Positions 30,721 through 32,930 of a stretch of DNA of 37,687 nucleotides are shown piece after piece. The stretch comes from Actinomycetes bacterium (GTDB lineage: Bacteria > Actinomycetota > Acidimicrobiia > IMCC26256 > PALSA-610). Location of the stretch: contig JAODBI010000337.1 of NCBI GenBank assembly GCA_025463875.1, forward strand, positions 1 to 37,687. The letters run 5' to 3'. Under the pieces are notes generated by a model that did not search any database, was not told where the DNA came from, and saw only the letters and a list, made by a program, of their open reading frames with translations. How positions within the stretch are numbered: the stretch's first letter is position 1; the number at the start of each line of letters is the position of its first letter. The position numbers and the translations under genes are program-made.

Positions 30721-30975
30721 TCAGTCGGGGCGTTCGCGAAACGCCTGCATGAGGCGATCCCGCACGTCGGCAGGCATCGCATCGACATCATCGTCGTTCA
30801 GGGCGTGGGTCATCGCAATCGTACGCCGCATCTGAGTCAGGTACTCCCGGCAGTGCGGGCAGTCAGCGAGGTGGAGATCAACGAGCAGCAGGACCTCTTC
30901 CGGCAGCGCGCCGTCGAGATATGCGGTGACATCTTCGACGAACTGTCGACAGACGTAGGACGCCGATGCGCTCAT
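30721..30975 (-). CDS. Zinc-finger (ZAS/zf-HC2) anti-sigma factor
   Basis: An 84-aa protein with the zinc-binding anti-sigma motif H-x3-C-x2-C in LHLADCPHC, preceded by FVEDVTAYLDGALPEEV. No transmembrane segment follows, so it is a small soluble anti-sigma factor of RsrA/ZAS type. The usual role is to hold its sigma factor inactive until a redox or other signal disturbs zinc binding. Its ATG (30975) overlaps the stop of the sigma gene as ATGA, which ties the pair together. The C-terminal helix PADVRDRLMQAFRE probably touches the sigma factor (inference). Confidence 0.9.
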   Translation of the reverse strand: MSASASYVCRQFVEDVTAYLDGALPEEVLLLVDLHLADCPHCREYLTQMRRTIAMTHALNDDDVDAMPADVRDRLMQAFRERPD

Positions 30976-31610
30976 GATGCTCGACCATCATCGTAATGAC
31001 GTTCGAGCGAGGCTCGAACCTTCGACCTTGCGCGATGAAGCAGTACCCGCTGGTTCGCGTCGGTCACTTCGAGCATGTCGCACACCTCGACTGCCGACCA
31101 ACCGAGTAGGTCACGCATGGTGATCACCTCGCGATGATCCGGTGGCAATCTCTCGACGACGGAGAAAATGAACTCCAGAGTTTCGGCGTCCAACGCGCGC
31201 TGCTCGGGCTCCGACCAAGGATGCGGCGGCCGCTTCCACGCGCCCCGCGCGCGAAGACCGCGCCGGAAGCGATGCGGATCTACCGCGGGTTCCTCTTCGA
31301 GCACAGCGGTGGCCGCGAAGGGGATCGAGCGGTTTTCCTTCACGCCGTGCGAGCGTGCGATGTTCACGAGTATCCGGTAGAGCCACGTCTTGAGACTCGA
31401 ACGTTGCTCGAACCGATCGATGCCATCGATCACCGCGAGCCACGTCTCCTGCAGAACTTCGTCGGCCACCGCTCGGCTCGGCACGTACTGCAGGGCGAGA
31501 CGCATGAGTGGCGCGTGGTAGCGGTCCAACAGATGGGCGAAGGCATCCGGATCGCGCGCCGCGAGCGCCTTCACCAAGACGCCATCGTCGGAGAAGTCGA
31601 GGCCCGCCAC
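30972..31610 (-). CDS. ECF-family RNA polymerase sigma factor
   Basis: About 212 aa. Region 2: LLDRYHAPLMRLALQYV, ADEVLQETWLAVIDGIDRFE and LKTWLYRILVNIARSH. The linker is about 45 residues and Arg/Pro-rich. Region 4: FSVVERLPPDHREVITMRDLLGWS, AVEVCDMLEVTDANQRVLLHRAR. No SnoaL extension is present. GTG 31610 is preferred; an ATG at 31664 abuts the inverted repeat that probably forms the promoter -35 region, leaving no room for a leader. The stop overlaps the anti-sigma ATG. The divergent beta-propeller gene is a likely target. Confidence 0.92.
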   Translation of the reverse strand: MAGLDFSDDGVLVKALAARDPDAFAHLLDRYHAPLMRLALQYVPSRAVADEVLQETWLAVIDGIDRFEQRSSLKTWLYRILVNIARSHGVKENRSIPFAATAVLEEEPAVDPHRFRRGLRARGAWKRPPHPWSEPEQRALDAETLEFIFSVVERLPPDHREVITMRDLLGWSAVEVCDMLEVTDANQRVLLHRARSKVRASLERHYDDGRAS

Positions 31611-31664
31611 GGGCCGGATCGTACGCGCACACAACCACGCGACACAGTCAGGGTGCCACCCCAT

Positions 31665-31714
31665 TCCGTTACAGGTCCTGCGCGACCAGGGTGCTCAGAA
31701 AGGTTTGTAACGGA
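31665..31714. promoter_or_regulatory. Inverted repeat TCCGTTACA...TGTAACGGA between sigma and propeller genes
   Basis: Two perfect 9-nt arms (31665-31673 and 31706-31714) are separated by 32 nt in the divergent intergenic region. Each arm reads TGTAACGGA toward its own gene, as expected for two -35 elements used by the same ECF sigma factor; a shared operator is the alternative. No clear -10 could be fixed. Confidence 0.55.
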
Positions 31715-31769
31715 TCGAAGATTCGGCGGACTGAAGGCCGACAACGACCGCTTCACCCGGAGGTTCTGC

Positions 31770-32930
31770 ATGAAATCCTTCCGCCGTCTCGCGACCGCCT
31801 CGGCGATCGCGATCGCGATCGTCGGGACCTTTGCGACGCCCGCGTTTGCCCACACGACCGATCATTCGTCGGGCCGCGACCACGACCGGTTCGCAAGAAG
31901 GGCCGATCACGTCGTGTTCGTCCAAACCGACGACCCGGCAGGGAATGCCGTGGTCGCGTACCACCGCGCCGGCGACGGCACGCTCTCGCAGGCCGGGACG
32001 TATTCAACCGGCGGAAAAGGCGGTGTACTCGCCGGCTCCGTCGTCGATCACCTCGCCTCCCAAGGATCGCTGACGTATGACGACGACCACGCGTTGCTCT
32101 TCGCGGTCAACGCCGGAAGCAACACCGTTTCGGTGTTCTCCGCCGACGGCGACCGGCTCCGCCTGCGCCAAGTTGTTTCCTCCTTCGGACAATTTCCGGT
32201 GAGCGTCGCCGTTCACGACGGCCTCGCGTACGTGCTGAACGCCCGCGCGGGCGGCTCGGTGCAGGGTTACGGCATCTCCGGTGAACACCTCTTCCCGCTG
32301 TCGGGTTCACACCGGACGCTCGGCCTCGACCCGACCGCGACTCCCGAGTTCGTGAACACACCCGGGCAGGTTGCGTTTACCCCCGACGGCACGCGCCTCA
32401 TCGTCACAACCAAGGCAAACGGCAACAACATCGATGTGTTCCGCATCGGATTCTCCGGAACACTGTCGACACCGCGCGTGAACACGGAGCCGGGCACCGT
32501 GCCGTTCGCCGTCACATTCGACTCCGCCGGTAACCTCGCCGTCACCGAGGCCGGCACCAACGCGGTGGCGACCTACAGCCTCCACCACAACGGAACCGTC
32601 ACGCCGCTGCACACCGCCGCCACCGGGCAGGCCGCAACGTGCTGGATCGTCGCAGCCGACGGACAGTTCTACGCGTCGAACGCAGGAAGTGGATCGCTGA
32701 GCCGGGTGCAATCCGGTCCCGGCGGCGCACTCACGTTCCTCGACAACACGAGCACCGACCCCGGTTCCGTCGACGCCGCGATCAGCGCGCAGAGTCACTA
32801 CCTCTACGTGCAGACCGGCGCCAATGGCATCGTCGACGAGTTCCGCATCAGCGACAACGGCTCGCTCAGCCCCATCGGAAGCGTCACCGTTGCCGGCGCA
32901 GTCGGCGGTGAAGGAATTGTCGCCATCTAG
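31770..32930 (+). CDS. Secreted beta-propeller (lactonase/YVTN-like) protein
   Basis: A 386-aa protein with a Sec signal peptide cleaved after ATPAFA (about residue 27). Repeats typical of seven-bladed lactonase or YVTN propellers follow: HVVFVQTDDPAGNAVVAYHR, LLFAVNAGSNTVSVFSADG, GQVAFTPDGTRLIVTTKANG, PFAVTFDSAGNLAVTEAGTN, FYASNAGSGSLSRVQ and HYLYVQTGANGIVDEFRI. Related cytoplasmic proteins are 6-phosphogluconolactonases, but export and the missing catalytic context make that activity doubtful; a binding or surface role is equally possible. GGAGG lies 8 nt before ATG 31770. It is divergent from the ECF sigma gene across an inverted repeat and is its likely regulon member. Confidence 0.85.
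   Translation: MKSFRRLATASAIAIAIVGTFATPAFAHTTDHSSGRDHDRFARRADHVVFVQTDDPAGNAVVAYHRAGDGTLSQAGTYSTGGKGGVLAGSVVDHLASQGSLTYDDDHALLFAVNAGSNTVSVFSADGDRLRLRQVVSSFGQFPVSVAVHDGLAYVLNARAGGSVQGYGISGEHLFPLSGSHRTLGLDPTATPEFVNTPGQVAFTPDGTRLIVTTKANGNNIDVFRIGFSGTLSTPRVNTEPGTVPFAVTFDSAGNLAVTEAGTNAVATYSLHHNGTVTPLHTAATGQAATCWIVAADGQFYASNAGSGSLSRVQSGPGGALTFLDNTSTDPGSVDAAISAQSHYLYVQTGANGIVDEFRISDNGSLSPIGSVTVAGAVGGEGIVAI

Follow-up and report, generated by a model that had tools for sequence, protein, structure and literature searches.

What a small extracytoplasmic-function-type (ECF) sigma switch senses, and which genes it turns on, is the question raised by one locus in a 37,687-nt stretch of actinobacterial DNA (the window), in which genes for an ECF sigma factor and its putative anti-sigma factor diverge from a gene for a secreted beta-propeller. 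The first-pass annotation had taken the propeller for the principal target of the sigma factor and proposed an envelope or extracellular stress function. The features of the locus are as follows.

30721..30975, minus strand: zf-HC2 (ZAS-type) anti-sigma gene, 84 aa; Pfam zf-HC2, 40.7 bits
30972..31610, minus strand: ECF sigma gene, likely start GTG 31610, 212 aa; Sigma70_r2 and Sigma70_r4
31636-31638 (minus strand) and 31740-31742 (plus strand): predicted transcription starts, about 7 nt past each ACTG
31644..31673, minus strand: predicted sigma/anti-sigma promoter; TGTAAC 31673-31668, N18, GACTGT 31649-31644
31706..31734, plus strand: predicted propeller promoter; TGTAAC 31706-31711, N17, GACTGA 31729-31734
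31770..32930, plus strand: lactonase-like propeller gene, 386 aa, signal peptide; PF10282
33079..33825, plus strand: FMN reductase-like gene (flavodoxin fold, NADPH-dependent); PF03358

Products of the locus

Gene order and Pfam domains confirmed that a sigma/anti-sigma pair diverges from a secreted propeller, and the 4-nt overlap of the two regulatory genes was found as described (coordinates read as 30972-31664 and 30721-30975). The sigma protein contains Sigma70 regions 2 and 4 only in Pfam, which places it among the ECF factors, and scored 82.7 bits against TIGR02937 (cut-off 42.9). Its start had to be corrected. ATG 31664 abuts the -35 box, approximately 25 nt ahead of the position at which transcription is predicted to begin, so the predicted transcript would not contain it. 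The likelier start codon is the in-frame GTG 31610, which agrees with the promoter position and with the start region of the relatives.

In the anti-sigma protein, residues C9, H35, C39, and C42 were present in all correctly aligned homologues (the L059 row, from Catenulispora, was disregarded as taken from the wrong strand) and are the likely zinc ligands. An HX3CX2C motif with a further ligand in a small protein corresponds to the ZAS (zf-HC2) type. No hydrophobic segment was seen when the sequence was inspected by eye and the protein was judged soluble, so that its designation as a soluble ZAS factor is upheld by the domain match, the ligand conservation, and this inspection. Soluble anti-sigma factors with zinc motifs have often been linked to intracellular redox sensing, and such motifs may also be purely structural (PMC7406223). 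The combination of a soluble anti-sigma factor and retained zinc ligands points to cytoplasmic sensing and a redox signal, not to envelope sensing. The analogy with RsrA and ChrR suggests that the protein may bind zinc and release the sigma factor upon oxidation. The organization of the pair varies among the related loci: the zf-HC2 gene lies on the strand opposite to the sigma gene, with no operon, being divergent in L143 and convergent in L149 and L059.

The propeller gene was assigned the start ATG 31770 behind a GGAGG sequence rather than the longer ORF from 31134. Its product matched the Lactonase family PF10282 with 47.1 bits (gathering threshold 21.7), and the AlphaFold2 model (pLDDT 92.1) was all-beta with a propeller-type strand pattern. 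The best Foldseek matches of this model were Pgl-like propellers and Pseudomonas PpgL (12-19% identity); a sequence search of the PDB gave no match. The window protein thus has its Pfam family and fold in common with the seven-bladed Lactonase-family propellers Pgl and PpgL, and differs from them in being secreted and in its low identity to the solved structures. Against the 6-phosphogluconolactonase equivalog NF008258 it scored 26.4 bits, far under the cut-off of 370. A literature search for ECF sigma factors with a lactonase or propeller target found nothing relevant.

The FMN reductase gene begins 148 nt behind the propeller gene, and the gap between them contains neither a GTAAC box nor a terminator-like site. 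Such a gene also follows the propeller in the related genome G001, and the propeller of G004 has none behind it. Judged from this arrangement, the propeller and the reductase probably form one transcription unit in the window.

Predicted paired promoters in the divergent gap

The sequence TGTAACGGA occurs at 31706-31714 on the plus strand and its reverse complement at 31665-31673, so the two perfect 9-nt arms, each directed at its own gene, are present as annotated. In the 4.6-Mb draft genome this 9-mer was found seven times (the reversed control eight times), and at such rarity two outward-facing copies within 50 bp are not a chance expectation. Four of the remaining five copies lie in coding sequence, and the fifth is intergenic, in a hairpin-like stretch without a matching -10 element. 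In the same genome, near a stray TGTAACGGA copy, a further ECF-like sigma gene diverges from a gene whose product is predicted to be exported (L004:2144-2677).

The arms form the -35 elements of two predicted promoters of the form YGTAACG-N16-18-(G/C)ACTG. Alignment of the gap from the window and from three genomes of the same family (G001, G002, and G004) revealed TGTAAC in both directions with ACTG 17-18 nt downstream of each box, i.e., the pair was conserved in all four family genomes having the locus. The sole -10 deviation was ACTA at the propeller promoter of G002. The proposal that the arms are paired -35 elements was thereby strengthened, by the ACTG accompanying each arm as well as by the conservation in relatives. 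The distance between the boxes varies among the family genomes but the ACTG spacing of each arm stays, which argues for divergent promoters, not a spaced operator. On sequence grounds, the gap is a pair of divergent promoters of one class, predicted to be served by one sigma factor.

Genome-wide searches with strict and relaxed motifs gave frequencies not above the reversed-pattern control, and the matches outside the locus were mostly within coding sequence or without a convincing gene downstream. The scan for further promoters, which the first-pass annotation had proposed, therefore left it plausible that the local regulon in this genome consists of the sigma switch itself and the propeller unit, and added no convincing intergenic site.

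Partners of the sigma factor and of the propeller in other genomes

A profile of the window sigma factor was run on 396 genomes of the phylum, of which 34 matched; loci were fetched from these and 28 were analyzed. In these sigma-ascertained loci the bipartite motif occurred 17 times in 196 kb (shuffle mean 0.35, maximum 3 in 100 shuffles), an approximately fifty-fold enrichment. This figure is slightly favourable: the motif had first been fixed on propeller loci, and its G following GTAAC and its permitted spacing were narrowed once these sigma loci had been inspected. Control loci contained one motif in 451 kb. The strict motif was absent from 15 of the 28 sigma loci.

Directly behind the motif we found genes for FMN reductases (L133, L142, and L145), a glutaredoxin-thioredoxin reductase fusion (L129 and L132), a FAD disulfide oxidoreductase (L143), and a SnoaL protein followed by FMN reductase (L136). 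When genes beside the sigma gene are also counted, FMN reductase was present in L133, L136, L142, L145, and L149, FAD disulfide oxidoreductase in L125, L139, and L143, and RclC-like DUF417 proteins, whose matches score under the NCBIfam cut-off, in L144, L145, and L147, with GTAACG boxes directed at the latter genes in L145 and L147. Other partners were exported proteins of other families (L136 and L142), propellers (L146 and L151), and distant propellers (L133 and L137). A Mycobacterium kansasii plasmid also carries a related sigma/zf-HC2 pair amid redoxin, peroxiredoxin-like, and DUF417 genes. On a Pseudomonas aeruginosa plasmid a related sigma and zf-HC2 pair was seen upstream of DUF692, DUF2063, and DoxX genes (L161:3986-7747). 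On the sigma side, oxidoreductases are thus commoner partners than propellers and several of them have the same motif, so that the propeller does not hold as the principal target for this sigma type.

The search from the FMN reductase side gave a consistent picture. GTAACG was present within 130 nt upstream of the reductase gene in five of the six genomes having the sigma factor and in none of the 22 without it (Fisher's test by hand, about 6e-5), a count that leaves out the deep-branching sigma of G237 and includes three already known positives among the five; the previously unseen genomes alone gave two of three versus 0 of 22 (0.01). In one of the five, G343, the reductase and sigma genes are unlinked. 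No matching promoter was found for the unlinked FMN reductases of G004 and G010.

The motif also preceded the propeller gene in five more loci where a sigma gene of this type is adjacent (L022, L049, L052, L059, and L062), whose carriers are SZAS-9, an Acidimicrobiales MAG, Trebonia, Catenulispora, and a Chloroflexi MAG, with differing gene orders. Cultured carriers include Trebonia kvetii and Catenulispora rubra. None of the remaining propeller loci with a callable start had the motif: it was missing ahead of propellers without this sigma type, and ahead of the propeller in L040 and L028, where a related sigma gene lies 2.3-2.5 kb off. In the tree the window sigma fell inside a fully supported clade of its family, and propeller linkage across the tree required at least two gains or losses, which makes the propeller a recurrent but non-universal partner.

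Sigma genes of a second, distinct ECF subgroup lie next to propeller genes of this family at 15 loci (L020, L034, L036, L037, L041, L042, L043, L045, L047, L048, L050, L053, L057, L060, and L071), of which L020 also carries FMN reductase. A GTAAG-type box was found in six of the 15 linked loci and also in two of 24 without that sigma. A tentative idea, less likely than not, is that two ECF subgroups are paired with one secreted propeller family, GTAAC promoters serving the first and perhaps GTAAG promoters the second; if true, actinobacteria would make wide use of this uncharacterised propeller as an extracellular branch of their response to redox stress or electrophiles.

Proposed switch and its relation to known systems

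We favour, with somewhat better than even confidence, an autoregulated ECF sigma/soluble ZAS switch with cytoplasmic redox sensing, whose local regulon would comprise itself, the propeller, and the reductase. In an unstressed cell the ZAS protein would keep the sigma factor bound. An oxidant or electrophile signal would oxidise its Cys/His zinc centre, and the freed sigma would then transcribe from the two divergent YGTAACG-N16-18-(G/C)ACTG promoters. One of them would provide more sigma and anti-sigma factor, the other the secreted propeller together with the flavin reductase, which would be reached by read-through, and the exported propeller would play a protective role. The switch would probably be an oxidative-stress response that additionally exports a protein.

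The originally proposed envelope or extracellular stress sigma, with one exported propeller as the main output, appears unlikely. The divergent partners do encode exported proteins in the window family, L049, L059, L136, L146, and L151, and it is also favoured by the genome scan, which added no convincing motif site, and by the second ECF subgroup that neighbours these propellers at 15 loci; the anti-sigma factor, however, is soluble, without a membrane or extracytoplasmic sensor part, and the commoner partners are oxidoreductases, so the envelope function did not hold as stated. Quite improbable is a response in which the sigma factor senses a toxic lactone or related small molecule to be hydrolysed by the secreted propeller: the fold is nearest to 6-phosphogluconolactonase and the periplasmic gluconolactonase PpgL within the Lactonase family, but the equivalog score (26 versus 370 bits) and the redox enzymes encoded by the partner genes speak against it. 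That the inverted repeat is the operator of a separate DNA-binding regulator, as its location between divergent genes might imply, is very improbable given the variable arm spacing with ACTG kept 17-18 nt from each arm and the single directional copies ahead of target genes at other loci.

The redox-responsive switch that we prefer offers a testable promoter code, YGTAACG-N16-18-SACTG, with a candidate regulon for this actinobacterial sigma/ZAS type, and the first functional lead for the secreted propeller family. With SigR/RsrA and the ChrR-type ZAS systems it has an ECF sigma and a soluble zinc anti-sigma factor in common and, by analogy, the redox logic. The window anti-sigma scored 32.6 bits against the RsrA equivalog TIGR03988 (cut-off 62.5), and its match to the ChrR model was also under the cut-off. 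SigR recognizes GGGAAT-GTT, and the window promoters are unlike it.

The promoters match the -35 consensus YGTAAC of ECF16 (PMC8315932), the group of Caulobacter SigF, Bradyrhizobium EcfF/OsrA, and Brucella BcrS/AbcS, which is autoregulated, responds to oxidants or HOCl, and has oxidoreductase targets (PMC8315932, PMC3420878). EcfF showed a similar conflict, between its annotated start codon and the transcription start as mapped (PMC8315932, PMC3420878). The -10 element of ECF16 is CGAA/CG(T/A), whereas that of the window is ACTG in both directions, and the ECF16 anti-sigma factor is a six-helix DUF1109 membrane protein, whereas that of the window is a soluble 84-aa zf-HC2 protein; the window system was therefore not filed as ECF16. 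Altogether, the comparison suggests that the oxidant-associated -35 element of the proteobacterial ECF16 also serves a sigma factor with a different kind of inhibitor.
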